From positions 62,001-126,000 of the forward strand of contig MTLP01000032.1 of assembly GCA_002009975.1 (NCBI GenBank): 64,000 bases of DNA, read 5' to 3'. The DNA is from Thermococcus sp. JdFR-02 (GTDB taxonomy: Archaea; Methanobacteriota_B; Thermococci; Thermococcales; Thermococcaceae). Each line of letters begins with the position of its first letter. Within the stretch, counting starts at the first letter, position 1. The position numbers and the translations under genes are program-made. This document shows, one piece after another, positions 2,600-19,430 of this stretch. Under the pieces are notes generated by a model. The model was not told the origin of the DNA. It did not search any database and saw only the letters and a program-made list of their open reading frames with translations.

Positions 2600-3031
2600 T
2601 TATAACAAGCTTGCAATTAACTTGTAATCTTCCTCTGGTAACTCTCTCATAGCTTTGCCCATCAAGTGACCGCTCCACTTCTTCTTGTTTGTAATGAACT
2701 TGAGTTTTGGAATTAAGGGCTTAAATTCAACTTCTCCAAGCTTTGTTGGTTTAACTTTCACTCTTAAGGGATAAGTCTCATTCAAATGTGGTGGAGACTT
2801 GAAAATTTTTGTTGAGTCCTGATAAGGCTCACTTACGACTTCAAAAATACCAACGATTTTTGGCTCTAGAATTTGTTTATCCCTTCTCTCTTGCTTTACA
2901 TAAATGACAAGCTTATCACCAGGCTTAACTTTGGCGATGGTATTCTTGTGTCTCTTTGGTACACCCCAAACGTTCTTCCTTTTAATAACCTCCCAATTAT
3001 CACGGTTTGTAATGCAGAGCCAGTAGGTCAT
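2600..3031 (-). CDS. EVE domain protein
   Basis: The protein is 143 residues when started at the ATG at 3031, which follows the SD GGTGATCCCT. The longer frame to 3091 would run through the promoter. It begins [16 protein letters not shown], typical of EVE domains of the PUA-like fold, followed by [11 protein letters not shown] and [15 protein letters not shown] and YTH-like domains bind modified bases in DNA or RNA and are common beside restriction systems. A TATA-like TTTTAAAAAG at about 3073-3084 fits this start. Sensing bases made by the nearby methyltransferase is an inference. Confidence 0.8.
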
Positions 3032-3107
3032 AGGGATCACCAAAGTATTTTTGGGGATTCTTTGTAAATAAAACTTTTTAAAACCTAGCAATCGAACAAA
3101 AACCTAG

Positions 3108-4166
3108 TCACCGGTTAGCTTTTATTTTAACCCACGTGTCCAGATATTTTGTTCCAATACTCTCTATTCGTAATGGTATATCAGTGTAAAATAAGTCATT
3201 AAGCTTGATTATAATATTATATCCTTGGTTTCCATCCTCTAAGACGTTATCTAGTCGCTCTTGGATTGAAAGTAATTTAATTTTGTTTTCAATCTTTTCT
3301 TTAGGAAAGAATGCTATTTGCTGCCTTCGATAATAATTAAAGGAACTATTTTTATTTTTCGGATGTCGAATAATCCGCCATACCAGTGGATACATAAGTT
3401 TAGAGAGAGTATATTTAGCTTTTCCTTTTTTGGTTTTAACATTATAAGGCGCGTGTATATTTCCGTAGACTGTTCCTAATATCAAGTCTATGAATTGCAG
3501 CAAATTAGAAGCCCCATATAAGTCATTGTTATCTTTATAGGAATGATGATTAGAATCAACAAAGATCACGTTGCTGTTCTTTATATGTAATCCCTTTCTT
3601 AACATTATAGGGACTTGTCTTTGAAAATTGGGACTTTTTGATTGGGCCCCCTTATCGTGGTATATGTTTCTAATTATAACATCACCACCAAAAAAGAATT
3701 TTGCACCTCCTATAATAGTTGTACGGAAAAATCTAGAATAAATTGGAAGCAGGCTTCGTTTTCCTCCGAATTTTTTGTAGTCAATGTTGTTTAAATTAAT
3801 TCCTAAAATATTAAAATAAACTAAATCTAGCCCCCTTTTATTGTTTTCTTCAATCAGAAATTCTATCCAGCTTTTTGCAATTTGATATTTGCGAGAACCG
3901 ATTTTACCCATTTCGGTATAGTGTATCCGATCATCGCTCCTATAGTGGAGTCTTTTACAATCAGTATTTTTGTGAAAATTCGAACATAATTTTGGATCAA
4001 CATGCCACTTACTCGACATTATGCATCTTTTCTTAAGAAGTTGCTCCACCAGTTCGTTTCTTTTGTTGACAGGAACAAATAATGCCCCAATATACATGAA
4101 ATTTATTCTCTTATTAGGGTCTGGTTGTATTTCATCAACAAAAACATCAACTTCTAAAGATGACAA
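3108..4166 (-). CDS. DUF3800-like hypothetical protein
   Basis: This 352-residue protein opens with VDVFVDEIQPDPNKRINFMYIGALFVP and ends with a LLQFIDLILGTVYGN segment. The pattern (early acidic VDE, later aspartate in a Q-x-D-L-x-x-G-x-V helix) resembles DUF3800, a predicted RNase H-fold family often found in defence islands. I recognise it only by these two motifs. The start is TTG at 4166, chosen because GGTGGTGAGACA lies directly before it. The coding sequence is markedly AT-rich, suggesting recent acquisition. Confidence 0.5.
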   Translation of the reverse strand: MSSLEVDVFVDEIQPDPNKRINFMYIGALFVPVNKRNELVEQLLKKRCIMSSKWHVDPKLCSNFHKNTDCKRLHYRSDDRIHYTEMGKIGSRKYQIAKSWIEFLIEENNKRGLDLVYFNILGINLNNIDYKKFGGKRSLLPIYSRFFRTTIIGGAKFFFGGDVIIRNIYHDKGAQSKSPNFQRQVPIMLRKGLHIKNSNVIFVDSNHHSYKDNNDLYGASNLLQFIDLILGTVYGNIHAPYNVKTKKGKAKYTLSKLMYPLVWRIIRHPKNKNSSFNYYRRQQIAFFPKEKIENKIKLLSIQERLDNVLEDGNQGYNIIIKLNDLFYTDIPLRIESIGTKYLDTWVKIKANR

Positions 4167-4360: not shown

Positions 4361-4870
4361 CTATTCTGACGGAAGGTACAAAATAATGGAACAATTATCC
4401 AAGTTATATCCCAAAATGTAAATTTCCTTGCTTTCTTCCCTTTCAAGAATCTTATTTAATCTATTTCTTAGAATTTTCTCTGTCCCGAAGAGAATCAACA
4501 CTGGAATAACATAGTCTAACTTTTCCTTAAAACACTTTAACTTCATTATATCCGCCAAAATGTCATCGAAAGATCTCGATGCCAGTTTGATCTCAATAAT
4601 AGCATAATTCTTGTCTTTCCTATTGGGAACATGAATTAGGAAATCAGGCATCTTTCTAGCACACTTTGGATAATAATACTGAAAACGTTTATCGAACTCT
4701 CCATGAAATGCTATCTTGCCTTCTCGTATTTCACTTTCTAAAAGCTTTCTCAATTGATAATAAAACTCATACGCTATTGGTCTTTCTTGAAATCTTACTT
4801 TCCCATTCTTATCTTTAGGAAGAGTGTAATTTCTTTTATCCATCATGCAAAGTGCTTTTATTACAAGCAT
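4361..4870 (-). CDS. PD-(D/E)XK nuclease-like protein
   Basis: The protein has 169 residues from the ATG at 4870, which is served by AGAGGTAA; a GTG at 4888 is an alternative overlapping the upstream gene. The central part reads KMPDFLIHVPNRKDKNYAIIEIKLAS, which gives PD, a 15-20 residue spacer and E-I-K, the core of the PD-(D/E)XK fold. Two strands and helices follow. It is the last gene of the methyltransferase operon and is the best candidate there for a DNA-cutting subunit, although catalysis is inferred from the motif only. Confidence 0.55.
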   Translation of the reverse strand: MLVIKALCMMDKRNYTLPKDKNGKVRFQERPIAYEFYYQLRKLLESEIREGKIAFHGEFDKRFQYYYPKCARKMPDFLIHVPNRKDKNYAIIEIKLASRSFDDILADIMKLKCFKEKLDYVIPVLILFGTEKILRNRLNKILEREESKEIYILGYNLDNCSIILYLPSE

Positions 4871-4877
4871 CAGATAT

Positions 4878-5549
4878 TTACCTCTCACGTTTTTCACCTT
4901 GAATAATCAATTTAAATTGCTCAATTAGGGATTTCACAATATTTTCAACGAGAACCTCATCCTCTATTTCAAAAAGTTTCTCACCAATGTAATTAGAAAA
5001 CACCACTAAACCGTGCTTCTTGTTAAATTCATCCAGTTCTTTCCCAAGAGCTTCCGAGAAACGCTTCTGTTTCTCTTTAATCTCATTTAAACGTCCAGAT
5101 TCCCCAGCTTTTTCAATGATATAGGGAAAATAATCAACAAAAAGATTGTAATCTGGCTTTTCTTCTTTAAAAGATTCGATCATCATTTTTATTATTCTCC
5201 AGTCTTCTTTTGAGAAATACTGTTTGAAATCCTCTTCATTCAGTTTAATAATCTTTAAAGTCTCTTTCATAGCATTTGTAAAACCAATGTAGCTCTTTTC
5301 GAGTTGATCAACGATTTTCTTTGCCTTTTCTTCCGGATCTTGGGCCTCAGTTATAAATCCATATACCGATATACTCCCAACAGCATAAGCCAAAGAATCT
5401 GCCAACTGCTCATAAGACCTAATTAGCTTTTTAGACGCTTCAGATAATAAAAGTTGCAAATCTTCCTCAAGCTCTTTCTTTTTAAGAATTTCAGTGATTT
5501 TTCCATAAAGAAAACCAAGAAGACGCAAATAAATTGATTGTTCTATCAA
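4878..5549 (-). CDS. hypothetical helical protein of the methyltransferase operon
   Basis: I do not recognise a family. The protein has about 223 residues, is rich in Lys, Glu and Leu, and is predicted to be almost entirely helical, with likely coiled-coil stretches near residues 15-45 and 150-185 (EIKEKQKRFSEALGKELDEF). The start is probably TTG at 5549, because the GTG at 5558 belongs to the SD AGAGGTGAC. It sits 12 bp after the 135-residue gene and just before the PD-(D/E)XK gene. A scaffold or regulatory subunit of the same complex is a guess. Confidence 0.6.
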   Translation of the reverse strand: MIEQSIYLRLLGFLYGKITEILKKKELEEDLQLLLSEASKKLIRSYEQLADSLAYAVGSISVYGFITEAQDPEEKAKKIVDQLEKSYIGFTNAMKETLKIIKLNEEDFKQYFSKEDWRIIKMMIESFKEEKPDYNLFVDYFPYIIEKAGESGRLNEIKEKQKRFSEALGKELDEFNKKHGLVVFSNYIGEKLFEIEDEVLVENIVKSLIEQFKLIIQGEKRER

Positions 5550-5561
5550 AAGAGTCACCTC

Positions 5562-5969
5562 TCAAAGCTTAACAATAGTCAGCTCTATTCCAGCATCCTC
5601 CTTGTATTGCTGCATTTCATAAACTTCCACTCCGCTTATCTCCATCACAATTCCGCAAAATTCTATCTGGTCTCCAAGCTCGGTTATCCTTGGCACCTCT
5701 AAGACCTTCATGCAATTGACCTTTGTTAAAGCGGTCTTAAGCATTGACAGTGCCAAGTCCAGATCCACAAACTCTTCGTTAAGGAACTTGCAGACATCTT
5801 CAATGATGATGCATTTCAAGCCCGATGAGTTTATTTTTCCCAGTTGTGCTTTCCTTATAAACTCTAAAGGCTTCATTGACTCAACATCATAACCTAAACT
5901 TTCCATGAAAGCTTTAAATTTTGAAAGATGTTTAGAGGGAAGAAAATAGAGCTTTGAAGCGCTCGTCAT
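5562..5969 (-). CDS. hypothetical protein of the methyltransferase operon
   Basis: This 135-residue protein is of no family I recognise. It has an alternating strand and helix pattern and no cysteines in a metal-binding arrangement. Its ATG overlaps the end of the DUF1156 methyltransferase gene by 4 bp and follows the SD AAGGTGAGG. It is therefore translated with the methyltransferase and is probably a small partner of it. No catalytic motif is visible. Confidence 0.65.
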   Translation of the reverse strand: MTSASKLYFLPSKHLSKFKAFMESLGYDVESMKPLEFIRKAQLGKINSSGLKCIIIEDVCKFLNEEFVDLDLALSMLKTALTKVNCMKVLEVPRITELGDQIEFCGIVMEISGVEVYEMQQYKEDAGIELTIVKL

Positions 5970-8821
5970 TTCTTCCTCACCTTTATGAATTCATCCAATC
6001 TTTTCTGTTCCTTAGCTTCCTCCATTTTCTCAATTGCAATTTCATGCAAACCTACATTGCATATTCCCACAAGGATGTCTTTTAGTCTGAGTTTTTCCTT
6101 TTGTAGATTCTTGTTCTTCGTTTCTTCTGGAAGAACCTCGTATAATGCTTTTGCAACTTCGCAGATGTAATGTCCGCCTTTTGCCAAGATGGTTGCTACC
6201 TTGTCTATACTTTCACCATCTTCGAGGGCTCTTATTGCTCTGTGGAGAATGTTGATCATTAAGTCCTCTTTTAATGACTTTTCGTCTCTCTCAAATGCGT
6301 TATAAAGCTTAACTGCTTTCGTTCTCTTTCCTTCCACATCAACTTTCTGGAACTTTCCAATGTTATGTTTGATCACTATTTCCTCCACTGGGTCTCCTTC
6401 AGTTGTGCCTAAAGCTAATGCTATCCTTCTTGCATCGTCATAGTCAATTATATCTCCATAACCTAAGCTGTAAGCCAATACATAGAACTTCGTTGGAGCA
6501 TCGACATCACCTATATGCGGAGCAACTTTCTTGAGTGTGTGATTGATAACTATTCCAACAGCCCTGTTTAGTGCTTCATCAAGTATTTGCTCTGGTGTTC
6601 TTTCACCACTTGGATCTTTTACTGGCCATCCTTCACTGACTATTCTTAATGCCTCTGCCTGAGCACCCATAACCAAATCTGGACCAAATAAACCATAGCT
6701 TTCCAACTCTTCAATTCTCTCGAGGATTTTTTCGTCGAAGTCTCTCATGACGTCAGGGAGCCATGCCCCTTCTCCTTGCCTCTTTCTGCATACGAAGAGA
6801 ATTGACGTTCTTAGTGCAGCTTTTCCTGCTATATGTAGGCTCCGTTCCATCTCACTTCTAACGCTCCACATTGCAGATATTGAGTAGCCCGCATCTAACA
6901 GAGCTTTAACTGTCTTAATCCAAGCTTCACCTGCTTTGTGAGCGAACCAGATTAATAATAGACCATCATCTGCTAAAGCATCTCTCATGTTTTTGAAAAT
7001 TCTCTTAATCTTGTCCTCGTATCTCTTTTCTGCCAATTTTTTCCATCTAACTTCGTTGTAAACTGCTTCTTCGCTCTTTGGAACTTCAAGGAATTGATAA
7101 GCCTCTGGGTAAATATCCTTTAGAATCAGCCTAAACCACACATAGAAATAGTCTGAAAGCTCTCCATGCTGAACTGCTCCATAGTATGGTGGATCTATGA
7201 AGATCACATCCAAATCTTTGTATTTTTGAGTTGTTTCTTCAGCGTCCCCGTAAACAACTTCAACCTGAGAATTTGAGTCTTTGAGACGTTTAACAATTCC
7301 CCTAAGTGCCTTAATAGAGTTTCTTAATGCCCATTCTGCACTTGCATTAGAAGAAAGCATATCGAATTCTCCATAATCCCAAGTCCATGCATAAGCATGA
7401 CTATCAAAAGTCCCTCTAATAACTCCTCTCGGTCTATTCCAGCTTGTTAAAGTTGAATTATAGTTTATTATCTTACCAAGCATTAATGTCAAATAAGCAA
7501 TTATTGCCTTTGCATAGTCTTCTGCTTCTTCTCTGCTCTTTCCTTTTCTCAATTCTTCATTAAGGATTTCATTGTATGTTTCTTTAATCAGTTCAACCAA
7601 CTTTGCATGAACTAAGAGCTGTCTTGCATTGAAGAGTTGGTAGAAGTGCTGAATTCCTTTAAGCATTGGTTCTTTTGTCTTTTCTCCAACAGGAATTTGC
7701 TGAATTGGAACTAACTCCTTCGCAACTAATTCATCCCATTGATTTTTCAGATCTTCCTCAGCTTTCTTGTAAGCTTCTATCATTTCTGGAGTTGGCTCGT
7801 AGTATTTTCTATTCTTACCTCCACCCATAACAACGGCAACCATTTTGTGAGGATGTACCCCTTTGTATTCTTGGGCTTCCCTCTCTTCAATGAATATTTT
7901 GTATTGCTCTTTCACTTTCTCTGGTTTGAGCACATACCCACAGCCCATACATTTGACTGCTCCTCTTGCTTGATTCCCTTCAGTCTCGAATTGAACACCT
8001 TTAAATGGTCCATCAGTTACTTCAACCAAGTCAATAGTGGTGTTCCCTTTCTTACGAGAACTTATTTTCTTGACTTTAACAACATGGAGCTCAATGTTAT
8101 TCCCTTTAACTTCTGGATACAAAGCGTAACCCCGTTCCCTATCGAGCCATTTGCTCATTAGAATTGGTATCTCCCTTCCACAGTGAGTACACTTTACTGT
8201 TTTAACCCAAATATAACCATCTGGTTGTCCCCCAATTGGGTGAGGAGGATAATATTCCTTAACTTCTTCCTTCAGCTTTTTAATGAGCTTTTTGCCATAC
8301 TTTTCGACATCAACAACTAATTTTTCACCATATTTCACAGGATACTCAAGAGAAGCCTTTAGAATTGTGAATGCAACTGGATTGTACTCTCCGGCAATTA
8401 CTTTTTCATAGCCAACTCTAATCATTTCAAAGGGTATAGATCCACCCCCAGCCATAAAGTCTGCCCCAGTTAGGATTTTGACAGGCTTAATCTCAATATC
8501 ATCAACATTAATATTGAACTTTGATAAAGGAGTAGGGTTCTGTCTTTCGGCAATTGAGTAATCAAATCGTTTACCAATAACTTTTAAAGGATCCCCTTTT
8601 ATTCCCATGTGATAAAGAAGTTGTTTCCTAATTTCATCATTTATTTCAATTTCAGGCAGAACAGCTAAATAAGAAGCAATTCTTGAAGGAATTAGAGGTT
8701 TTCTTGTCCAATATACATGGAGGAAATAAATTGGGGGCAGTATATTTGGTCCTCCTCTTTCCCTACTTGCCTCAACACTTGCTTCAACAACTGGGAACCA
8801 TTTTTCAATTAAACGCCTCAT
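5966..8821 (-). CDS. DUF1156 (COG1743-type) adenine-specific DNA methyltransferase
   Basis: This 951-residue protein has the SAM-binding motif DFMAGGGSIPFE at about residues 119-130 and the catalytic motif IV VIFIDPPYYG at about 538-547. Between them lie two CxxC pairs (CTHC near 210, CMGC near 290) that probably form a zinc ribbon. The N-terminal part (RRLIEKWFPV...YWTRKPL) is the DUF1156 hallmark. The reaction inferred is N6-adenine or N4-cytosine methylation of DNA. It faces the DUF499 ATPase gene across a divergent promoter and heads a four-gene operon. The ATG at 8821 follows GGTGAAAAC. Confidence 0.9.
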   Translation of the reverse strand: MRRLIEKWFPVVEASVEASRERGGPNILPPIYFLHVYWTRKPLIPSRIASYLAVLPEIEINDEIRKQLLYHMGIKGDPLKVIGKRFDYSIAERQNPTPLSKFNINVDDIEIKPVKILTGADFMAGGGSIPFEMIRVGYEKVIAGEYNPVAFTILKASLEYPVKYGEKLVVDVEKYGKKLIKKLKEEVKEYYPPHPIGGQPDGYIWVKTVKCTHCGREIPILMSKWLDRERGYALYPEVKGNNIELHVVKVKKISSRKKGNTTIDLVEVTDGPFKGVQFETEGNQARGAVKCMGCGYVLKPEKVKEQYKIFIEEREAQEYKGVHPHKMVAVVMGGGKNRKYYEPTPEMIEAYKKAEEDLKNQWDELVAKELVPIQQIPVGEKTKEPMLKGIQHFYQLFNARQLLVHAKLVELIKETYNEILNEELRKGKSREEAEDYAKAIIAYLTLMLGKIINYNSTLTSWNRPRGVIRGTFDSHAYAWTWDYGEFDMLSSNASAEWALRNSIKALRGIVKRLKDSNSQVEVVYGDAEETTQKYKDLDVIFIDPPYYGAVQHGELSDYFYVWFRLILKDIYPEAYQFLEVPKSEEAVYNEVRWKKLAEKRYEDKIKRIFKNMRDALADDGLLLIWFAHKAGEAWIKTVKALLDAGYSISAMWSVRSEMERSLHIAGKAALRTSILFVCRKRQGEGAWLPDVMRDFDEKILERIEELESYGLFGPDLVMGAQAEALRIVSEGWPVKDPSGERTPEQILDEALNRAVGIVINHTLKKVAPHIGDVDAPTKFYVLAYSLGYGDIIDYDDARRIALALGTTEGDPVEEIVIKHNIGKFQKVDVEGKRTKAVKLYNAFERDEKSLKEDLMINILHRAIRALEDGESIDKVATILAKGGHYICEVAKALYEVLPEETKNKNLQKEKLRLKDILVGICNVGLHEIAIEKMEEAKEQKRLDEFIKVRKK

Positions 8822-8844
8822 GTTTTCACCATCCCAAGAATAAT

Positions 8845-8887
8845 TTATAACAACCCTTATAAGTTTGCATCATCAATAGTTATAAGA
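8845..8887. promoter_or_regulatory. divergent promoter of the modification operons
   Basis: The 91-bp gap between the methyltransferase and the DUF499 ATPase holds TATA-like elements for both directions. On the minus strand these are CTTATAAGGG (8857-8866) and GTTATAAATT (8845-8854), which place starts just before 8821. On the plus strand GTTATAAGAG (about 8878-8887) places a start just before 8913. The closeness suggests the two operons are expressed together. Confidence 0.55.
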
Positions 8888-8912
8888 GTATTGGCTGAAA
8901 TGGGTGGTTATC

Positions 8913-11900
8913 ATGAAAAGAGTATGGGAGGTTCTTGTTCCTCATGATGAAGTTATCCAAGGAAAGCTCACCGAGAATAGTTTTGTTGGAAACTTGGGAA
9001 GCGTTTGGGAGAAGAGAGAACTCGGTAAAGATGTTAACGTTGAGGAGAGATACTATAACCCAAGAATGTTCATTGAGAGAACTTATCTCACATCCAAGAT
9101 GAGAGAAGTTGTAACAGAAATATTCCAACGTTTAAACGGAGCCAATGGAAGACCAATTTATCATTTAAGGGTTGGACTCGGTGGAGGTAAGACTCACACA
9201 TTGCTCTTGCTCTATCACTTAACAAAAAGCTGGAATGAAATAGGCCCAATCTTTGCCTCGAAATTTGGATTAAATCTTTGGTTGCCTCCAAATGTTAGAA
9301 CTGTTGTAGTAGATGGGACAAAACTTGAAATCTTCGGTTATCCTTTCCCTGATGGCACTGAGGTAAAAACCATCTGGGGCATGATACTGAAGCAACTCGG
9401 AGAATACGATGAAAAATATGACTCTTGGGACTATGTTCCCTCTACAACAGTCTTAAAAGAAGCATTCAACAAAGCTCCAACGCTCATTCTCATAGACGAG
9501 CTAACTCTATACATTGAAAGACTTGACGAAGATAAACAAGAGAAAGTTAAGGCATTTATTCAAAACTTGACAACTGCAGTTGAAGAAACTTATACGACAG
9601 CATTGCTCATAGCCACTCCCGAGGGAGAATTTGAGAAAGCATTTAGAAAAATCAAGAACATTCTCGAAAGATACAGCTCAATCAAAATAGTAACCTCTCC
9701 TGATGAGTCAAAACACATTAGGAGAATAGCCCTCTTCAAAGGCAATTATTTCTTGGAAACTGCAAAAGAAGTTGCTCAGGCATATAAAGAAGCATATTTG
9801 AGAGAAAACATAACGCTTTCTACTGATATAATGGATATTATAGTTAAGAGCTATCCCTTCCATCCGGCCGTTGATATGCTTCTGGAAAAGCTCAAAGGCA
9901 GCAAAGAGTTCCAGTTAGTTAGGGATGAATTGAGATTCCTTGCAAGTTTAGTTTATTCAGTATATAAGAACAAACCCAAAGATGCTTACTTGATAACTCC
10001 TTCTCACATTGATATCACAGATGATTATGTAATGGCAGGAACGATAGCAAAAATTGGAGATGTTTTCCTAGTTAGCAGATTAAAAGGAGATTGGAATAGG
10101 CTCAATACAATTGAAGACAAAGAAATTGGAGATTTGGCAAAGAAAGTTCTAGGATTTATTGTGCTGAATTCTCTTGTTGAAACTGTTCCGGGTGAAAGTG
10201 GAACCGATAGAAATGCCATATACTTTGCTCTCCTATCTCCGAAAGTCAGCAAAAGCCTCCTTGACTCTGCAATTAACGAAGTCTTAAAACGCACTTGGTT
10301 CGTTTCAGTTGATCCAAACACTGGAAGACTATTCTATGGAAAACCAAACATCAACAAGATAATCAGTGATTACACAGAGACCATCAAAAACAAGAATCCA
10401 GAAATCTGGAAGGATATAATAAAAGAAACCCTCGATAAATGGCTTGATGATAATTTCAAAAAGTACATGAGGCATTCCAAGGAAAGAATCTTCCAAAAGA
10501 ATAAAATCATAATGTGGGCCTCTTCATCAGACATGATACCTGACTCCAACGATTATGCTCTAAAACTTGCCTTTGTGAGTTGGGATAGAGCAGCCAATGA
10601 TAAAGAAGAGGTGATCAAACAAGTAAAAGAATTCTTTGAATACTATGGAACCAGACCCAGAGAATATAAAAATACGGTTGTATTCCTAGTCCCAGATATA
10701 GAAACAACTGAAAAAGCAAAGGAGGTAGCATATAGGCTTAAAGCAATTGAACTCATCGAAGAGGAAAAGGAAAAGAATCCCGATCTGAAGACAAAAACCA
10801 TAGAAAGATCACTGGAGCTTGAAAAGGCTAGAAATATTACACATTTAAGCCAACTAACTATATTGAGCTACAAATATCTTGTCTATCCCTATGGAGACCT
10901 AAAAGTAGATGAACTTGAAACTACTGAACTGTTACATGAGAACATACTTCTGAAAGTCGAAGAAAAGCTCCTAAATCGTGGAAAGGTCCTGAGAAACTTA
11001 TCTCCTTCCGCATTAGTGGAAAGATACTGGCCCAAAGATAAGAAAAAAATAGAAGTACGTGAACTAAAAGAGTACTTCTACAAAGTCCCAAGCTTTGAAT
11101 ATGTCCCTAAACCAGAGATAATAGAAAAGGCAATAATTGAAGCTGTGAAATTGGGATTGATTGCATATATTGATGAAAGTGGAAAAGCGTACACAAAAAC
11201 TTCAATCTTTAAGCTTTCAGACAGGGGTGTTTTAACAAAAGACGTAAGGATGATAAAATTAACAATAACGGTTAGAGACAAAGAAGGAAAACCTGCAGAC
11301 AATATCGGAATATATGTGGACGGAAAAAGAATACGCTCAGGAGAAGCTTTAGAAGACCTTCCCGGTTCCAAACATGTGATCAAAATAGAGCTTCCCAAAG
11401 ACTATGAATTCTTAGGATGGAGCGATGGAGCAAAAGAGCTTGTCAGAGAAGTTACACTTGAAAAGGACATTCATTTAGAGGCCCTCGTGAAAAAGAAAGA
11501 AAAGAAACCCAAAATAAAAATCACAATAAAAACTGTTGATTTAGATGGAAATGTCATAAATGCTCCAATAATAGTGGAATCCGAAGAAATTGGAAAAGAA
11601 AGCGGGTTTGGACATCTTGAAATTTCAATTTCAGAAGAAACCCCGATTAGGATCATAGTACATTCAACTGGAAATTACAGGTTCGTTTCATGGCAAGGAG
11701 GAGGAAGTAGTGAGGAAGTTACACTACGTCCACGTAGTAATCTGGAGCTAGTTGCACTGTTCAAAAAAGTAAGTAAGCCACCAGAAGGTCCAGAAGGTCC
11801 TATTGAGAGATGGGAATTAATTAGAGAATCTGGAACAATTGAGAAGGTTATAAGAACGATCCGTTCTAACCTAAAGAAAGAGACCAGATACGTTAAAATA

Positions 11901-12230
11901 ACCATAAAACTATCCCTGAAGGAATTTATTGAGAACATAAATATCCTAACATCCCTAATAAAAGGAGGAAAGTGTACAATATCCTTACAATCCTCAATGC
12001 CACACTTAGGATTTGAAAAGCTGTTAATGGAAGCCGAGGGAGATCTAAGCAAGATAACTAATTTAAGACAGTTACTAACACAGGCTGGGTTCTTCTTTAA
12101 GGAGATTACGTTGAGAATAGAAAGAGAACTGGAGACACTTGAGATAGTAAAAGAAGTCATTGACATAGATGTCTTGGAAATTCTCCCCGCCTCTTCGGAG
12201 ACGACTGTTGAAATGGAGGTGAAAACATGA
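8913..12230 (+). CDS. DUF499 (COG1483-type) ATPase of a DNA modification/defence system
   Basis: The protein has 1105 residues from the ATG at 8913 (SD GGGTGGTTATC). An AAA-type core near the N-terminus has the Walker A motif VGLGGGKTHTLLLL and Walker B PTLILIDELTLYIE. The C-terminal third holds two tandem beta-rich modules, each with a GW-type or SW-type motif (EFLGWSDGAKE and RFVSWQGGGSSEE), before a final alpha/beta tail. DUF499 ATPases are known companions of DUF1156 methyltransferases. It overlaps the PglZ gene by 4 bp (ATGA). It probably powers assembly or translocation, which is inferred. Confidence 0.88.
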   Translation: MKRVWEVLVPHDEVIQGKLTENSFVGNLGSVWEKRELGKDVNVEERYYNPRMFIERTYLTSKMREVVTEIFQRLNGANGRPIYHLRVGLGGGKTHTLLLLYHLTKSWNEIGPIFASKFGLNLWLPPNVRTVVVDGTKLEIFGYPFPDGTEVKTIWGMILKQLGEYDEKYDSWDYVPSTTVLKEAFNKAPTLILIDELTLYIERLDEDKQEKVKAFIQNLTTAVEETYTTALLIATPEGEFEKAFRKIKNILERYSSIKIVTSPDESKHIRRIALFKGNYFLETAKEVAQAYKEAYLRENITLSTDIMDIIVKSYPFHPAVDMLLEKLKGSKEFQLVRDELRFLASLVYSVYKNKPKDAYLITPSHIDITDDYVMAGTIAKIGDVFLVSRLKGDWNRLNTIEDKEIGDLAKKVLGFIVLNSLVETVPGESGTDRNAIYFALLSPKVSKSLLDSAINEVLKRTWFVSVDPNTGRLFYGKPNINKIISDYTETIKNKNPEIWKDIIKETLDKWLDDNFKKYMRHSKERIFQKNKIIMWASSSDMIPDSNDYALKLAFVSWDRAANDKEEVIKQVKEFFEYYGTRPREYKNTVVFLVPDIETTEKAKEVAYRLKAIELIEEEKEKNPDLKTKTIERSLELEKARNITHLSQLTILSYKYLVYPYGDLKVDELETTELLHENILLKVEEKLLNRGKVLRNLSPSALVERYWPKDKKKIEVRELKEYFYKVPSFEYVPKPEIIEKAIIEAVKLGLIAYIDESGKAYTKTSIFKLSDRGVLTKDVRMIKLTITVRDKEGKPADNIGIYVDGKRIRSGEALEDLPGSKHVIKIELPKDYEFLGWSDGAKELVREVTLEKDIHLEALVKKKEKKPKIKITIKTVDLDGNVINAPIIVESEEIGKESGFGHLEISISEETPIRIIVHSTGNYRFVSWQGGGSSEEVTLRPRSNLELVALFKKVSKPPEGPEGPIERWELIRESGTIEKVIRTIRSNLKKETRYVKITIKLSLKEFIENINILTSLIKGGKCTISLQSSMPHLGFEKLLMEAEGDLSKITNLRQLLTQAGFFFKEITLRIERELETLEIVKEVIDIDVLEILPASSETTVEMEVKT

Positions 12231-13141
12231 TCCCAGAAGCATTGCTGAAAAAAATAATCACAACAGAGAATCCAACAAAAGAAATAGGAAAGTTCATAGT
12301 AAAAGAATTCTCCAAATTCCTTACTTTCCCGGATTTTCAATATTATTCTGAATTTGAACAAAAAATGTCTTCATTTGAACAGTGGCTCTATGAAAATTGG
12401 GAAACAGAAGTTTATGAGTTACTAATTCCAGAGAACAAAGACGAGATAAGCATTATCCAAGCATTCCAAAGAGCATCCGAAATAAATGCAAATGTATTAA
12501 TTGCGGATGGATTTAGTATAAGAGAGCTTATCTTCTTAATAAACGAATTTGGAGAAGATAGAGTCACGTATGAGTTCTCATATGCATATCCCCCCACAAT
12601 AACTTCCAAAGCGGCTACAATAGTTTTTGGTAGCCCCACTATGAAAGAGTACTTCAATAACAAGGAGATCATCATAACCGGAAAACAATGGAAAACAAGG
12701 CTTATTGAAAATCCCATGGATCCTCCGAGAATAGGTCACGAAACTGGATTTGCATTTTATTCATACTACCCCGATGCCCCTTTGCATAACGCCCAGATTC
12801 ATGGAACTACACTACAAAATATCGGCGAAGTCATAAAGAAGTTAATTAATATGATAAAAGAGCTTTCCAGATACACAGATTTAGTTATTACTGGGGATCA
12901 CGGATACATCTTTTTAGGAAATAATCCAAACTTGTATTTATGGAAGCCTATAAAAAGTCCTCGATTCGGAGAAAACCTCAAAAAATCACCATATTTAATT
13001 GTGGAAAATGAAGCGGTTGCAATTGGTAGGTTCCATGCACTAAAAAGCAGGGATTCATTTATAACTCATGGAGGAATAAGCATTATGGAATCATTAGTGC
13101 CTGTTGTAATAATTAGGAGGGAGATCAATGGCACAGTTTAA
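12227..13141 (+). CDS. short PglZ-domain protein
   Basis: This 304-residue protein has the alkaline phosphatase-like PglZ motifs: VLIADGFSIRE with Asp94, DLVITGDHGYIF with Asp224 and His225, and THGGISIMESLVPV with His281 and Glu288. PglZ proteins occur in BREX and related defence systems. Canonical ones are usually much longer, so this is a compact version consisting of little more than the core domain. Its ATG overlaps the DUF499 stop codon and follows GGAGGTGAAAAC. Metal-dependent hydrolase activity is inferred from the retained residues. Confidence 0.85.
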   Translation: MIPEALLKKIITTENPTKEIGKFIVKEFSKFLTFPDFQYYSEFEQKMSSFEQWLYENWETEVYELLIPENKDEISIIQAFQRASEINANVLIADGFSIRELIFLINEFGEDRVTYEFSYAYPPTITSKAATIVFGSPTMKEYFNNKEIIITGKQWKTRLIENPMDPPRIGHETGFAFYSYYPDAPLHNAQIHGTTLQNIGEVIKKLINMIKELSRYTDLVITGDHGYIFLGNNPNLYLWKPIKSPRFGENLKKSPYLIVENEAVAIGRFHALKSRDSFITHGGISIMESLVPVVIIRREINGTV

Positions 13142-13508
13142 ATTGAGCCTTTCACCAAGACCGTCACTTAGAGTGTATCGAAAATCTGAAAATGGGGAAA
13201 GAGTATATTACACTAAATTAAAAGGATGGAAAGTTATCATCCTCAAAGAAACTCTCTTAAGTAGAATACCCGCAAAAACCGTGAAACAATATAAGAATGG
13301 CTTAATATTTTTTGAGATAGATGAAGAGAATGCTCTCAGAATCATTTTAGCTGCTCAAACAGTTAAGACTGTTATAAATCGAGAAAAAGTCAGAAAGATA
13401 GCCAATGGAATAGCAGAACTTCCTTCAGATGAAATCTATTGGTGGTATAGATTATACTTAAAATATGAAAGAAAGGCATTGAATGCTTTAAAGAGTGTTC
13501 TTGTTTAA
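13128..13508 (+). CDS. small hypothetical protein linked to PglZ
   Basis: This 126-residue protein is of a family I cannot name. It overlaps the end of the PglZ gene by 14 bp and has the strong SD GGAGGGAGATCA before its ATG, so it is the third gene of the rightward operon. The middle part (RIILAAQTVKTVINREKVRKIANGIAEL) is helical and the end is rich in Trp and Tyr (EIYWWYRLYLKY). It converges with the leftward operon with a 4-bp overlap. Confidence 0.7.
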   Translation: MAQFKLSLSPRPSLRVYRKSENGERVYYTKLKGWKVIILKETLLSRIPAKTVKQYKNGLIFFEIDEENALRIILAAQTVKTVINREKVRKIANGIAELPSDEIYWWYRLYLKYERKALNALKSVLV

Positions 13509-13864
13509 CTTTCTATGTATCTCTTAATATCAAATCTACCATTTGCAATTACATCCTCGTATATAATCCTAATTCCTGCTTCTGCATATTTTTCTAACTC
13601 TTCTAATCTTTGTTCTGGCGTTAAATTTGGATATTTGATTTTCATAAGAAGTTCCAATGTTCCATCTTTGTCTATAGAGTAGGTATTTATCAGTTCCTCT
13701 TTTTTGGATAATTCCTCTTTCTCTTCAAATATTATTCCAATTGCTGCTGCTATTTGGAATAAAATACTGAAAGAGGGAAAATACTCTTTGTATTTATTTA
13801 TAAGTTCTTCATATTTATCTTTTGAACTTGTATAAATTTTTGGTTTAGTTCCTTCCCATACCAT
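13505..13864 (-). CDS. small accessory protein of the SMC-like/helicase operon
   Basis: The protein has 119 residues from the ATG at 13864 (SD GGGTGAGTGAAG). A helical core has ILFQIAAAIGIIFEEKEEL, then EELINTYSID, similar in pattern to small proteins that accompany Dnd-type DNA modification operons. I cannot assign it to a family with confidence. It is the last gene of the leftward operon and starts right after the stop codon of the DndD-like ATPase. Confidence 0.6.
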   Translation of the reverse strand: MVWEGTKPKIYTSSKDKYEELINKYKEYFPSFSILFQIAAAIGIIFEEKEELSKKEELINTYSIDKDGTLELLMKIKYPNLTPEQRLEELEKYAEAGIRIIYEDVIANGRFDIKRYIES

Positions 13865-13866
13865 CT

Positions 13867-15897
13867 TCACTCACCCACTAAAACATTTGCTTCAAAAATA
13901 GATGATTCTCTGTTAACCTGATTTCTTACTATTATAAACTCCTTACAGATCTTGTCTTTAAAAATAGGAGCTATAGAATCAATTTCTGTTTTTCCATTTG
14001 GTCTTTCGTCTTTTAAAACTAAGAGAATTATTTGGTTCTCCATTTCTGAAAATAGCTTTGCTATATTTTCTTGGACATAAGGGCTTAACCTACCAAATAA
14101 CGTATCTGTTATTATAGGTGCTTTAACTTGGGAATACTTATTAAGACCTAGAATAAAGCTCAAAGCGACAACTTCCATTTCTCCATATGAAATAGTGTCC
14201 ATATTAGGTCTTGAACCATCTTTACAGACTATTTGGAACTTATAATTGTTTTTACTACTAAATTCAAAACCAGCGTATTCATCTTTTTTATTTGTTAGCT
14301 CTAAAAATATATCTGAAGAAGTCCTTATAATATCTTGTCTTCTTTTTTCAACTACTATATCCAAATACTCCTTTAATGCATTTTTTAAAGTGTCTACTAA
14401 TCCAATTTTTGCTTCAATTTCTGATAATTCTGAGCCAGAAGAAATACGTCGCTTTAATTTTTTCTCGATCTTATTTTTCTCACTAGTTAATTCCTCAATT
14501 CTTTCAGTGACTTTCTGAAGTTCTTTTTCAAGCTTCCCAATTTCCCTCTCTAATTGAGATATCTTCTTCTCAATTTGATTGATTATTGCTATTCCTACAT
14601 TTTTGAGCTTTTCACTAATCTGCTTAATTTGCCTTTTAACTTGATTTATTTCCTCTTCAGTTTCTTTTAGTTTAATACGAGATTCGTAAACACTGCTAAT
14701 AGCTATTCTCTCAATTTTTCTAAGTTTTTCGAGCAATTGGGAATAAATATGGTTGTAGTATGCATGCTTTTTGTCAATTTCTTTTAACTTATCAACAACT
14801 TGAGGATGTTCCTCTTTTAATTCCTTCAGCTGTTCTTGTAACTGTCTAATTTCATATTCCTCAAAAATTATTCTTCCACATACAGAGCATTTGGATTCAT
14901 TTAGTGTTTCTTCCAGAGACTTAATTATAAAATTAAGTTTCCTGAGTTTTTCTTGTTCTCTTTGTAATTCTGAAAGCTTCTTTTCTAATTGTTCCTTTGC
15001 ATCAAGTAATTCCGGTTTAAGTATTAGTAGATGTAAACTTGTGCTATTCTCCTCAATCTCTTTTTTAATGTTCTCTCTGATTTTTTCTAGTCTTTCTAAC
15101 TTTTCTTCCAACTTTTGTCGGGTATCTTCAAGATTTCTAATTTCTTCATAACTAGATTGAGCTAATTCTCTTCTTAATTCTGCTAGTCTTGCCTTTTTAT
15201 CTGCAAGCTCTTTTTTAATTTCCTCTTTCCTTTTTTTGTAATGTCCTAGTTGAGTATTTATCCTATCTAATTCCTCAGATAATGATCTCAAGTGTTTTTC
15301 ATTATCCAATTGCTTCTTCCTAAGTTTTTCTAGATCCCATCTAACATTTTCAAGATCATTAATTGCCTCACGGATTGATTTTAGTCCAAGAAGTAATTCA
15401 ACAGAATCTCGTACCATCTCACCCCCTTGTTCTCTAGCAAGTGTTTTGACATCCTCTGCGTCAAAGAAAAAGAACCTACTAATTTCATAAGGTATTAACT
15501 GATCGATAAAATCCTGTTTATAAAGGACGTCACTGATTATTGCCTCTCCATCTACAAGTACCTCTAGGCTTTCTTTTATATTATGACCTTTTTTAATAGC
15601 TTTGCGTATAATGATATAAGTTTTCTTAAGTACCTCATCGTAGAAAGTTAACTCGACAAACATTTCCGCATCTTTTTCATTTAAAGCTTTATCATTAAAT
15701 ACTAGCTTTGTATTTCTTCCCCTTGAACCATATAATCCCCAGTATATAGCATCTAAAATTGAGGTTTTACCAAATCCATTGTCTCCATATATCCCAAAGA
15801 TATGTTTTCTTTTTTGAGAACAAGTTTGTTCAAATATTATTTCTGTTAGTCCTCTGTATGGTTTAAAGTTTTTCATTGCAATTCTTTGTAACCACAC
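13867..15897 (-). CDS. DndD/Rad50-like SMC-type ATPase with zinc hook
   Basis: The protein has 676 residues from GTG at 15897, served by AGGGGGGAT; a TTG two codons earlier lies inside that SD. The Walker A motif YGDNGFGKTS is near residue 39. Long coiled coils run from about 180 to 540 and are interrupted by KCSVCGR near 327, a CxxC zinc hook as in Rad50. The C-terminal lobe has the signature SYGEMEVVAL and the Walker B PIITDTLFGRLS, with Asp-Thr where most ABC proteins have Asp-Glu, as in DndD. DNA sensing or bridging is inferred. No dndA, dndC or dndE is present nearby. Confidence 0.82.
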   Translation of the reverse strand: MWLQRIAMKNFKPYRGLTEIIFEQTCSQKRKHIFGIYGDNGFGKTSILDAIYWGLYGSRGRNTKLVFNDKALNEKDAEMFVELTFYDEVLKKTYIIIRKAIKKGHNIKESLEVLVDGEAIISDVLYKQDFIDQLIPYEISRFFFFDAEDVKTLAREQGGEMVRDSVELLLGLKSIREAINDLENVRWDLEKLRKKQLDNEKHLRSLSEELDRINTQLGHYKKRKEEIKKELADKKARLAELRRELAQSSYEEIRNLEDTRQKLEEKLERLEKIRENIKKEIEENSTSLHLLILKPELLDAKEQLEKKLSELQREQEKLRKLNFIIKSLEETLNESKCSVCGRIIFEEYEIRQLQEQLKELKEEHPQVVDKLKEIDKKHAYYNHIYSQLLEKLRKIERIAISSVYESRIKLKETEEEINQVKRQIKQISEKLKNVGIAIINQIEKKISQLEREIGKLEKELQKVTERIEELTSEKNKIEKKLKRRISSGSELSEIEAKIGLVDTLKNALKEYLDIVVEKRRQDIIRTSSDIFLELTNKKDEYAGFEFSSKNNYKFQIVCKDGSRPNMDTISYGEMEVVALSFILGLNKYSQVKAPIITDTLFGRLSPYVQENIAKLFSEMENQIILLVLKDERPNGKTEIDSIAPIFKDKICKEFIIVRNQVNRESSIFEANVLVGE

Positions 15898-16148
15898 TAC
15901 CAATCCCCCCTCATTTGGTTAAAGTATCTATTTATGATCTCTGTTAAGTCTCTTTTAATTCCCCGTTTTTTTCCGATTTTTACGGCTTTTTCTTCTCTTA
16001 TGACTACTTCAAGCAAGAGTTCTAGTGGGAGAGAATACTTGTTTGCTACTCCCTTTAATATCTCATAGACATCTTTTGAAAGTTCAAAATCCCCATCTTC
16101 ATCAGAAACAATTACAAAGTTCTCATATTCATATATTTCAATAGGCAT
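15897..16148 (-). CDS. small acidic protein of a DNA modification-type operon
   Basis: This 83-residue protein starts at the ATG at 16148, after GGAGGTACTTGACA inside the helicase gene end. Its C-terminal half (ILKGVANKYSLPLELLLEVVIREEKAV) resembles small proteins found between DndD-like ATPases and PLD helicases, where they probably bridge the two. I base this on position and the helical pattern only. It is tightly coupled to both neighbours: its stop codon overlaps the next start by one base. Confidence 0.6.
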   Translation of the reverse strand: MPIEIYEYENFVIVSDEDGDFELSKDVYEILKGVANKYSLPLELLLEVVIREEKAVKIGKKRGIKRDLTEIINRYFNQMRGDW

Positions 16149-16150
16149 TG

Positions 16151-18331
16151 TCAAGTACCTCCTAATACGTTAATCCTTCTATATAACCTCGAAAGCTTAA
16201 TTAATGTATCTTCAGAATCTATAGCACTTTCTAAAAATATCAAACTCCTATTAAGTTCCCTTTCAAAGATCTCAATCTCTGTAGGCTCGATCTCGTAATT
16301 ATATGTCTCATCGTAGGGAAAAACAAAGAGATCATAGATGATAGCCCTATCTTTATTAGGAGCTTTTCTAAGTACCCTTCCCCTTCTTTGTATAAATTCT
16401 CTCGGATTTGTGCTACTTGCCAAAATTATTGCTGAGTCGCTTGCTGGAATATCAACGCCTTCATCCAGACATTTAATTGACAATAGAAACTTGACAGCTC
16501 CTTCCTCAAAAAGACGCAAATGTTCAATCTTTTTCTCCTTTTCTTGGATACCTAAGTATTTTAGGAACTTATATCCTCTTTTTGCCATTTCCTTTGCCAA
16601 GATATCTAACTGCTCCGTATCTTGGCAATAAATAAGGCATCTACCCAACTTATCTCTATTTTTCTCAATGATTTCTATTGTTTTCTGGATTTTATTCTCT
16701 GCTTTTTTGATTATTTTAGCTCGCTTTAGTAATAAGTTCTGGAGTAACATTGCCTCACTCTTGTCCTCCAGAATATCAAGAGCTTCCTTAAGTGAAGTGT
16801 CTTCTGACAAGTTGTACTTGGCAAGTATCCGTTTATAAGTACTGTAAATTTTTCTTGAGATCTCTTTGTATTGATATAATTCTTCATCTGTAAGAGGGAC
16901 TATTTCAATGTGATATTCATAGGGAACTATCCTTTCATCCCTAATTGCATCTTTTAGAGAATATTCATAAATTATGCCTCCAAAATAATCCATAATCATT
17001 TTAGTTCCGACATCATCCCAGATCCTTATAGGAGTGGCACTTAATCCAAGTCGTCCCAAAGCGGGATCAAGTTCTTTCATGATTTCTCTGCTCTTTCGAG
17101 CACCAAGCCTATGAACTTCATCCACTACAAGAACATATTGCCCTCTAAGCTCCTGATTTATGACTTCTATGAATGTATCTGAACTAGCAGAACGAATTGT
17201 TGCTATTATGAATTTTTTACCATGTTTCTTTTGATATGCCCATATAAACTCTCTCAAAAGGACCTTCCAGTTTGGATTTTGACTTGAACAAATTATTATT
17301 GGTACATCCACAAAAACTCTTTTGATTTCCCTTATCCACTGGATTACAAGCTCTTTTGATGGAACCAATAATACTACAAATGTATCTTCAGGCAGGCGCT
17401 TGACTGCAAATAACGCTGTTAAAGTTTTTCCACTACCAGTTGCCATAGAGAGAATACCACACCTATTATTTTTATACCATTTTTGAATTGCCTCTTCTTG
17501 ATGCTGCCATAATGTAATCTGCGATTTGGAAGCTGGATATTCAACAAAAACTTCTTCTGGATCAACTATTTCCTTAATCTCTGGAGGTGCAATTTTTATT
17601 AGTTCTCTTTTTACAGCCTCAGGGATTGTGTAAGTTCTCACTTTAGGGTTTGCATTGTTCCACGTAGCCCAAAATTCTTCCTCAGCTGAAGTTATATATT
17701 CTTTCTCAGCTTCTATCCAGCTTCTATGAACAGAAAAGGACTCTGCATTGTCAATCCATCCCCTTGCAGTTTCATTTATTGATCCTTCAATATGTAATTT
17801 GTTTCCGTTAAAATCCTCAAAAATCGCAAATTTACTATGCCAGATTGCTTCACTCTTGGTATCCTCATATATGATATCAATGTCATGGGGTATGGCTAAC
17901 CTAATTTCCAGTTTTCCCTTTGAAACCAACCATGCAAGAACCTCAAGTCTCTTTCGTACTATAAGATCTTCAAGATTTATATTCTTAAGTTCTTCCAAGA
18001 GTTTTTGTTCGATTATCTCTGGAGGTGTTTTTAATCCTCTGTTAATTGCTTCAACATCTTCTTTAGATAACAAAACTCCTGTTATAAGATACATTTTTTC
18101 ACCTTGATTAATAAAATAAGCAAGACCCCTTGCTGCTGCAGCTAATACTGAAGAAGAAAAGTACCCACTTGCTCTATAATAATATTTGGAATTTGCTATC
18201 ACCGGAATAAAAAATTCAGTGAGGGTGTTATCTAAGGAAGTATACCTTTTTTTCAATTCTAATCTTTTGAAGTTTCCATCAGACTTAAATGGTGTTATCA
18301 AAATTATCCCCACTGAGAAAATAGAGTTCAT
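16151..18331 (-). CDS. PLD nuclease-SF2 helicase fusion
   Basis: This protein of about 726 residues has two parts. The N-terminal phospholipase D-like nuclease has YYRASGYFSSSVLAAAARGL and the catalytic HSKFAIFED (HxK-x4-D) followed by GSINET. The SF2 helicase has MATGSGKTLTAL (Walker A), VVDEVHRLG (DEVH), GLSATPIR and RGRVLRKA. Such fusions are typical of defence and DNA modification loci. The start is uncertain: ATG at 18331 is listed, but a possible TATA at 18336-18344 would favour TTG at 18301 or 18256, and a TTG at 18379 extends the frame. It heads the leftward operon. Confidence 0.85.
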   Translation of the reverse strand: MNSIFSVGIILITPFKSDGNFKRLELKKRYTSLDNTLTEFFIPVIANSKYYYRASGYFSSSVLAAAARGLAYFINQGEKMYLITGVLLSKEDVEAINRGLKTPPEIIEQKLLEELKNINLEDLIVRKRLEVLAWLVSKGKLEIRLAIPHDIDIIYEDTKSEAIWHSKFAIFEDFNGNKLHIEGSINETARGWIDNAESFSVHRSWIEAEKEYITSAEEEFWATWNNANPKVRTYTIPEAVKRELIKIAPPEIKEIVDPEEVFVEYPASKSQITLWQHQEEAIQKWYKNNRCGILSMATGSGKTLTALFAVKRLPEDTFVVLLVPSKELVIQWIREIKRVFVDVPIIICSSQNPNWKVLLREFIWAYQKKHGKKFIIATIRSASSDTFIEVINQELRGQYVLVVDEVHRLGARKSREIMKELDPALGRLGLSATPIRIWDDVGTKMIMDYFGGIIYEYSLKDAIRDERIVPYEYHIEIVPLTDEELYQYKEISRKIYSTYKRILAKYNLSEDTSLKEALDILEDKSEAMLLQNLLLKRAKIIKKAENKIQKTIEIIEKNRDKLGRCLIYCQDTEQLDILAKEMAKRGYKFLKYLGIQEKEKKIEHLRLFEEGAVKFLLSIKCLDEGVDIPASDSAIILASSTNPREFIQRRGRVLRKAPNKDRAIIYDLFVFPYDETYNYEIEPTEIEIFERELNRSLIFLESAIDSEDTLIKLSRLYRRINVLGGT

Positions 18332-18480
18332 GAATCTAATATACCTTTCGACTCGTAATAATGAGTAAACACCACACAACGAATATTAAATATTGTTCAT
18401 TGAAATTTTGTGTAGTTTTATTAATGTCTTAGTGAAACATTGAAGACCGATTAACAGATCTCACTACAAAAACCAGATGC

Positions 18481-18526: not shown

Positions 18527-19129
18527 TCACAACTCTCCAAACTTTCTCTTAAACTCACCCAAAAGTATTGGGGCATATTCATATTTAATTCCCCACCTTG
18601 ATAAAAACTCCTTGAACTCGAATGTCGCATCTATTGGAACCAAAACTATTCCCGCGGCAAGCTCCAGGGCATTGAGCGTTTGGATGATTCCTTCACTCTT
18701 ATTTCTCCCTCTCAGGCTGTATATGAAGCGCACCTTCTCACTGCTTGTGAGATTAGAGTAGGAGAATTTGAAGAGGGTGTAGCCCTTAACATTAAGCTCC
18801 TCATAAAAGAACTTACCTCTTGTTAGAGAATATCCCTCGGCAAGAAGTGCAAAGCTGATTAAGTTGTTCTCACTGAACAGTTCCTCTAAAAGAAAGCCCT
18901 TAACATCTAGCTCCTCAGGAGAAAAGCCACTATTCTCGAGCATCTGTTTAAATTGGAATGCCGCTTTGAAAGGATTGCCATTTTTTAAAATAACCGCGAT
19001 GTCTATATCATTTGGCGCTTCTTTTCCTTTAACAATGGAACCATAGAGAAGGATATCCCAAACATCTGGATTTTTTTCTTTAAATTTCTTGGCAAGCTTA
19101 CTCAACTTTTTCTTTAAGTCTGATAACAT
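18527..19129 (-). CDS. MNT-type nucleotidyltransferase antitoxin
   Basis: The protein has 200 residues from the ATG at 19129. The nucleotidyltransferase motif is intact: LLYGSIVKGKEAPNDIDIAV (GS-x9-DxD). In HEPN/MNT pairs this protein modifies and silences the HEPN toxin. The gene overlaps the HEPN gene by 32 bp, with ATG ATG preceded by AGGA; a longer frame to 19183 is possible but would add an unlikely N-terminus. The C-terminal half (FIYSLRGRNKSEGIIQTL) is helical. Confidence 0.8.
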   Translation of the reverse strand: MLSDLKKKLSKLAKKFKEKNPDVWDILLYGSIVKGKEAPNDIDIAVILKNGNPFKAAFQFKQMLENSGFSPEELDVKGFLLEELFSENNLISFALLAEGYSLTRGKFFYEELNVKGYTLFKFSYSNLTSSEKVRFIYSLRGRNKSEGIIQTLNALELAAGIVLVPIDATFEFKEFLSRWGIKYEYAPILLGEFKRKFGEL

Positions 19130-19430
19130 CATTCCTAATCGCCACCAAAATCCTATCATCAACTTTTCTCGTATAGGTGTCACGGTAGTAAGGAAAGTAA
19201 TAATTTAAAATTTCATAAAAGTCTGGATAGCGGAGCTTTAAAACTCTAAAGCGTTCTCCATGATTATCAGGGAGAGTTCTTAGGTCTCTCCAGAGAATAT
19301 AATCACAAATAGCCACAATGGTCTTGAAGTACATCATGAAAGCGGCGTTACTTAACCCTTGCTTAAACAAAAGCTCAGCACTCTGGAAGTATTCATCTAT
19401 GTTGCTTTTCAGGTCTTCAAGTCTGCTCAT
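19098..19430 (-). CDS. HEPN-domain toxin partner
   Basis: This 110-residue all-helical protein is of HEPN size and sits directly upstream of the MNT gene, the usual order. It has DYFQ/AELLF-like first-helix residues (EYFQSAELLFKQGLSNAAFMMYFKTIVA) typical of HEPN domains. An R-x5-H pair (Arg51, His57) fits the RX4-6H spacing but lies mid-protein rather than near the C-terminus, so RNase activity is uncertain. The promoter carries three palindromic operators, consistent with autoregulation. Confidence 0.75.
   Translation of the reverse strand: MSRLEDLKSNIDEYFQSAELLFKQGLSNAAFMMYFKTIVAICDYILWRDLRTLPDNHGERFRVLKLRYPDFYEILNYYFPYYRDTYTRKVDDRILVAIRNDVIRLKEKVE

Follow-up and report, generated by a model that had tools for sequence, protein, structure and literature searches.

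A BREX-related methylation core and a PbeABCD module travel together in Thermococcaceae and may form one restriction system

Can a methylation module from one family of defence systems and a nuclease module from another, lying side by side in the genome of a heat-loving archaeon, be parts of a single restriction system? The question is raised by a defence block of 11 genes at positions 4361-18379 of a 64,000-nucleotide (nt) window (the whole stretch of DNA analysed) from Thermococcus sp. JdFR-02 (contig C4 of the 2.36-Mb genome, here G000). Reading of the open reading frames revealed three operons in which all frames are intact and most adjacent genes overlap by 4-20 nt: a minus-strand REase178-h226-s135-methyltransferase operon; across an 82-nt gap, a divergent plus-strand operon of DUF499-PglZ-DUF7680; and a second minus-strand operon, PbeA-B-C-D, which runs towards DUF7680. 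The original prediction had described three packed, overlapping operons whose ten genes act as one system of mixed type; the operons are confirmed, in the same order in two other genera, and the gene count is 11. Our analyses suggest that the block is probably one methylation-based restriction system with Pbe as its effector, built of known components in a combination, BREX-related core plus PbeABCD, that is apparently undescribed.

To what kind of system do the first two operons belong? By their profile matches they are a DUF499-centred BREX-related (BR, alias Hma) core and not BREX itself: DUF499 stands in place of BrxC, and neither BrxC (DUF6079), BrxA nor BrxL gave a PADLOC, Pfam or NCBIfam match within the block, so that BREX proper was rejected. 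An earlier assignment of PglZ and DUF1156/DUF499 to BREX-like loci was thus right about the methylation module and needs narrowing to the BR/Hma kind, and the accompanying observation that BrxA, BrxL and DndC are missing stands, as none was found. The methyltransferase matches PF06634 over cut-off, and its GGG motif and DPPY (543-546) are invariant across 7 homologues. PglZ was more elusive, with single-sequence matches that are weak (1e-4 to 3e-3, under cut-offs) and a Pfam genome search that missed it; it was recovered with a profile of its relatives, which matches solved BREX PglZ in the PDB at 6.8e-7 and also PorX, and its metal-site residues D94, S97, D224-H225 and H281 are invariant in its alignment (A2). 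The small protein s135 has no profile match and a structure model with a mean predicted local distance difference test score (pLDDT) of 40; a ~131-aa protein in haloarchaeal loci and in G021 corresponds to it in position only.

The remaining gene of this core, DUF7680, bears directly on what the core lacks. DUF3780 is absent from the block, which has DUF7680 (PF24728) instead, and among 396 archaea (the sample also used for PbeA) DUF7680 is over cut-off in three genomes alone, G000, G111 and G081. Its homologues lie in plasmids of Nostoc, Pseudanabaena and Aminobacter (L147-L149; E 1e-44 to 1e-47), and in all three bacterial plasmids examined the gene sits between DUF499 and a DUF1156 methyltransferase in an operon whose last gene encodes a PLD (HKD)-SNF2 helicase; through these operons the hitherto unassigned DUF7680 family gains a role as a BR component. 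DUF7680 occupies the place of DUF3780 in these HKD-helicase operons, which are carried by plasmids of cyanobacteria and of the rhizobial order. BR systems require a helicase. PADLOC and profile searches detected neither a BR-type SNF2 helicase (BrxHII-like) nor HmaA within the block. Supply of a BR helicase in trans was considered and rejected: the single other SNF2 helicase over cut-off in G000 is a DrmD within a DISARM-like locus, and no BrxHII/HmaA-type helicase was detected elsewhere in the G111 genome. Because DUF7680 normally occurs in bacterial BR operons ending with an HKD-SNF2 helicase, PbeA appears to fill the helicase slot.

As judged from profiles and gene order, the third operon is an apparently complete PbeABCD-type (CxC-ATPase) module, an already named type. 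PbeABCD first came to light in haloarchaea, where its defence depends on phosphorothioates (Xiong et al. 2019, PMC6459918), and corresponds to the CxC-ATPase/DndE system (Rakesh 2024, PMC10853773). The original assignment of a DndD-like ATPase and PLD helicase to Dnd- or DISARM-like loci holds as to a Dnd-related restriction module, here of the PbeABCD kind, and fails as to a Dnd modification module and DISARM, neither of which is present in the block. PbeA keeps its HxK motif and DEVH among homologues, and its N-terminal part resembles the BR PLD-helicase family (NF042964, 1.2e-24). A tree nevertheless clusters it with PbeA proteins, apart from BR helicases (support 100/100), which rejects descent from a modified BR helicase and argues that PbeA is a replacement by an unrelated module; its nearest sampled relatives include an Aurantiacibacter PbeA that overlaps a methyltransferase gene (84/83). 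The true PbeA start probably lies downstream of the annotated TTG (18379), since the first ~35 codons are not conserved. The ATPase scores 7.4e-75 as PbeC against 1.5e-63 as DndD (TIGR03185 under cut-off), carries the zinc hook KCSVCG (CxxC, hook residues 337-345) and, in a small tree with long branches, groups with DndD (98/97), between sampled PbeC and DndD sequences; the label PbeC would therefore seem to fit its operon place better than its exact clade. The protein at the PbeD position aligns with archaeal PbeD (hhalign E 1.3e-4, probability 54%), and the best six PDB fold matches of its model (mean pLDDT 57) are all to DndE 4LRV, at weak E values of 0.44-2.3. Kinship to DndE is suggestive only, and it leaves the earlier claim that no DndE is present doubtful, as PbeD is the expected DndE cognate.

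If these are two modules, do they belong together? Block-type PglZ occurs in G000, G111 and G081, 3 of 115 genomes of the phylum (in which the relatives of G000 fall mostly within one family, probably Thermococcaceae), with G021 carrying a 23%-identical PglZ. All three genomes, which represent three genera, hold the full block in identical order with h226 of G081 as the sole gap, and the 4-nt stop overlap between the convergent operons is kept in 3/3. The flanks, on the other hand, are unrelated across the three chromosomal sites: an AbiE pair and, ~1.7 kb past PbeA, a proteasome-subunit-like gene in G000; a DNA2-like helicase and a kinase in G111; an amino-acid ABC transporter and a Tyw3-like gene in G081 (the names in the latter two from sequence reading). 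Within ~10-20 kb outside the block no gene is shared except one 90-aa open reading frame in G111. Because the gene order is identical while the chromosomal flanks differ in all three genomes, the operons have moved together, and the two travel as one unit. The notion of a single system is in this respect upheld, since in 3/3 Thermococcaceae with this PglZ the operons are conserved together and have moved together; its single function, like the cooperation of its proteins, what Pbe reads and the biochemistry, we infer.

How might such a unit work as an antiviral system of the restriction-modification kind? The DUF1156 methyltransferase would mark the cell's own DNA, probably with N6-methyladenine, at a site set by its N-terminal/zinc-finger part, with DUF499, PglZ, DUF7680 and s135 serving as BREX-related scanning machinery. 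PbeC-PbeD would scan DNA for the same sites as the methyltransferase, PbeB would regulate, and PbeA (HKD nuclease, DEVH helicase) would attack DNA without the methyl mark or block its replication, taking the slot of the HKD/SNF2 helicase-nuclease of ordinary BR systems; PglZ may also act on unmethylated DNA. Methylation would then stand in for phosphorothioate marking, on which PbeABCD is known to depend. DndC was not found over cut-off in the G000, G111 or G081 genomes, and phosphorothioation was rejected as the self-mark because a genome without DndC cannot make it; for the same reason methylation is the sole self-mark that the block can make. Over half of the PbeAC pairs known so far lack neighbouring phosphorothioation genes; for these Xiong et al. 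(2019) guessed methylation instead, and they noted candidate base-modifying genes near 155/320 PbeAC pairs without dndCD (PMC6459918).

Divergence between G000 and G111, which are different genera (purB third-position identity 46%), revealed a mosaic along the block, with contrasts reaching a chi-square p of 1e-98. Third-codon identity is 0.86 in DUF499-PglZ-DUF7680 and 83-88% in s135, h226 and the methyltransferase tail, and falls to 0.61 in methyltransferase codons 1-700, 62-71% in PbeA, 0.58 in PbeD and 0.43 in both PbeC and PbeB. The synonymous rate (dS) is 0.2-0.3 in the core, with the nonsynonymous rate (dN) far under it, and saturated in PbeB/PbeC. PbeC shares 382 sites between G111 and G081 versus 213 between G000 and G111, whereas DUF499 is opposite (636 for G000 and G111 versus 83 for G111 and G081). 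The divergent part of the methyltransferase takes in the DUF1156 end and the zinc-finger insert as well as the catalytic motifs, and most of its amino-acid replacements fall in clusters away from the catalytic core. G000 and G111 thus share their machinery but differ in the likely specificity part of the methyltransferase and in the Pbe module; that these two must match is the simplest functional reading of the mosaic, which fits a joint change of specificity. More specifically, we put forward as a tentative possibility that PbeABCD discriminates self by DUF1156 methylation, that the methyltransferase specificity part and PbeBCD are exchanged as matched modules, and that a DndD/DndE-type scanner can read base methylation as readily as phosphorothioates. 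The two genomes offer a natural allele pair for finding which protein reads the mark.

Several observations weigh against such a joint system and lend themselves to another account, in which two independent systems, a helicase-less BR/PglZ system restricting via PglZ and a self-sufficient Pbe, share a mobile island and travel together without cooperating. The original prediction had said that the two would be mere neighbours if the helicase/DndD-like operon were routinely found without the core and never adjacent to it: Pbe is indeed routinely found alone, and the two nonetheless adjoin here. Full-length PbeA occurs in ~11/396 archaea, and besides the three block genomes no locus read had the core; PbeABCD without the BR core was seen at at least 8 other archaeal loci. 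Conversely, DUF499-PglZ-methyltransferase-~131-aa sets with neither helicase nor Pbe occur on haloarchaeal plasmids (L050, L051, L052, L053) and in G021, so the BR core may not need Pbe. Core and Pbe sit on separate convergent operons, their association is known from one lineage of three members and may be a single historical event, and in published analyses Pbe shows little co-evolution with modification genes (PMC6459918). The mosaic comes from one genome pair and could reflect recent core homogenisation by gene transfer rather than joint exchange; third-position identity in PbeB/PbeC (0.43) is no different from that of housekeeping genes (purB, 0.46). In G000 one end of the island holds an AbiE pair as well, of which the stretches read in G111 and G081 showed no sign. 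We still regard independence as unlikely, if a serious contender: Pbe without DndC would be left with no known self-mark; three genera keep the exact junction and stop overlap at three sites, whereas their other flanking genes vary; and the slot for a helicase in the DUF7680-type BR operon is empty. Homogenisation, for its part, accounts for the low divergence of the core and not for PbeC following another tree.

Cooperation of a looser kind would have Pbe as an add-on backup, guarding a BR core that restricts by PglZ and firing, with no shared mark, when phage counter-defence disables that core. BREX and BR systems frequently have auxiliary nucleases (PMC12839542) and a negative regulatory role has been suggested for PbeB (PMC10853773), yet Pbe diverges together with the methyltransferase specificity part and no trigger element is visible, so that we find this account improbable. 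That the block is a degenerating remnant, no longer working, we consider very improbable indeed; the methyltransferase and PbeC genes are each in two frames in G081, but in G000 and G111 each of the 11 genes has an intact frame, and low dN relative to dS in the core and the kept catalytic motifs speak against decay. The two overlapping frames of PbeC and of the methyltransferase in G081 (L043:6453-8487, 13222-16385) are either sequencing error or decay.

Compared with known types, the block resembles several and equals none. DUF499-methyltransferase-helicase systems have been divided into BR types 1-3, of which type 3 is distinguished by a standalone PglZ and type 2 by DUF3780 together with an HKD-helicase (Rakesh and Krishnan 2026, PMC12839542, which does not mention Pbe or DndD). 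With type 3 the block shares the DUF499 ATPase, a DUF1156 N6-methyltransferase, standalone PglZ and a small protein at a possible inactive STAND (iSTAND) place, but it lacks a BrxHII-like helicase and has DUF7680 and PbeABCD, and s135 is a candidate iSTAND only. With type 2 and the DUF7680-type operons it shares DUF499, a small protein beside it, the DUF1156 methyltransferase and an HKD-helicase effector, whereas it has DUF7680 rather than the DUF3780 of type 2, its PbeA is not an orthologous SNF2 helicase, and PglZ and PbeB-D are added. HmaB and HmaC are its best PADLOC matches, with the HmaA helicase of HmaABC missing. Its third operon agrees with PbeABCD in A-B-C-D order, in PbeA and PbeC (and weakly PbeB) by profile, in the HKD motif and in the zinc hook, and differs in having no DndCDEA partner, a CxxC instead of CxC hook, and an ATPase between sampled PbeC and DndD. 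DrmABC of DISARM were not among the block's matches shown, and DISARM was rejected for the block as its markers lie only on contig C25. The profile searches thus name the second module as PbeABCD and the core as BR/Hma, while no paper joining the two was found in the open-licence literature. The block offers a concrete, compact case of a defined methyltransferase and BREX-related machinery locked to PbeABCD without DndC; if the joint system were confirmed, Dnd-type effectors and BREX-type modification machinery would be interchangeable parts.

Table 1. Features of the defence block and its immediate neighbours, with positions in the window.
Feature	Position	Strand	Basis
EVE-domain protein, possible modified-base reader, probable block member	2600..3091	-	PF01878 1.7e-25
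352-aa protein, optional member	3108..4166	-	72% identical counterpart, same place, G081
REase178, small PD-(D/E)XK-like nuclease, motif PDFLI..AIIEIK	4361..4897	-	weak nuclease-family matches
h226, helical protein	4878..5558	-	96% identical in G111; absent in G081
s135, small protein, candidate inactive STAND (BrxB/BrxF-like) by position	5562..5969	-	99%/88% identity G111/G081
DUF1156 adenine-type DNA methyltransferase (HmaB/BR methyltransferase)	5966..8821	-	HmaB 1.1e-69, DUF1156
Divergent intergenic region, 82 nt, TTATAA-like boxes (putative promoter)	8822..8903		sequence reading
DUF499 AAA+ ATPase (HmaC/BR ATPase)	8904..12230	+	PF04465 5.4e-36 over cut-off; HmaC 6e-64
Standalone PglZ, alkaline-phosphatase superfamily, 304 aa	12227..13141	+	alignment residues and profile match
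DUF7680 protein, BR-operon component	13128..13508	+	PF24728 3.1e-11 over cut-off
Convergent stop-end overlap of DUF7680/PbeD operons, 4 nt	13505..13508		same overlap in L042 (8116-8119), L043 (8845-8848)
PbeD-position small protein, probably DndE-like	13505..13870	-	hhalign to archaeal PbeD
PbeC/DndD-like ABC ATPase, CxxC zinc hook	13867..15903	-	PADLOC PbeC 7.4e-75
PbeB-like small protein	15897..16154	-	PbeB 6.1e-5 (weak); PF20306 small Dnd protein 0.018
PbeA, HKD nuclease fused to SF2 helicase	16151..18379	-	PbeA 4.8e-209

Among the smaller members, REase178 is present in all three block genomes (3/3), and its weak matches are to PD-Lambda-3_A (1.5e-4) and TnsA-like (0.049) nucleases, with the G111 homologue AHJR-like (0.0026). 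The EVE gene also lies beside the block in G111 and G081 (87-90% identity), and a partnership between EVE and DUF499/COG1743 operons is already known (PMC7641849); the adjoining 352-aa protein is without a Pfam match. Next to the EVE gene in G000 is the AbiEi/AbiEii toxin-antitoxin pair (927-2499), and past PbeA lies a nucleotidyltransferase-fold protein (18527-19183, Polbeta 5.7e-8) that is not common to the other two loci. Elsewhere in G000, a DISARM-like locus (L134, contig C25:8000-20986) holds a DrmD-type helicase (7e-140), a 1382-aa methyltransferase and a large DEAD-like helicase.

Searches beyond the archaeal genomes found no relatives of the methyltransferase or PbeA in viral contigs, and no composite core-Pbe locus in the plasmid records opened, which were part of those returned by separate tblastn searches with DUF499 (121 records) and PbeA (30 records); a genome-wide DUF499-alignment scan drifted to cyanobacterial BR systems, owing to the patterns chosen. 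PbeABCD adjoins methyltransferases at other loci too (see also Xiong et al. 2019, PMC6459918), which speaks for a joint system. In three archaeal genomes of two families it also stands beside a B12-binding radical SAM protein (L098:4907-6178, L099:11621-13159, L100:14151-15431), which may represent a modification partner of Pbe not described before.

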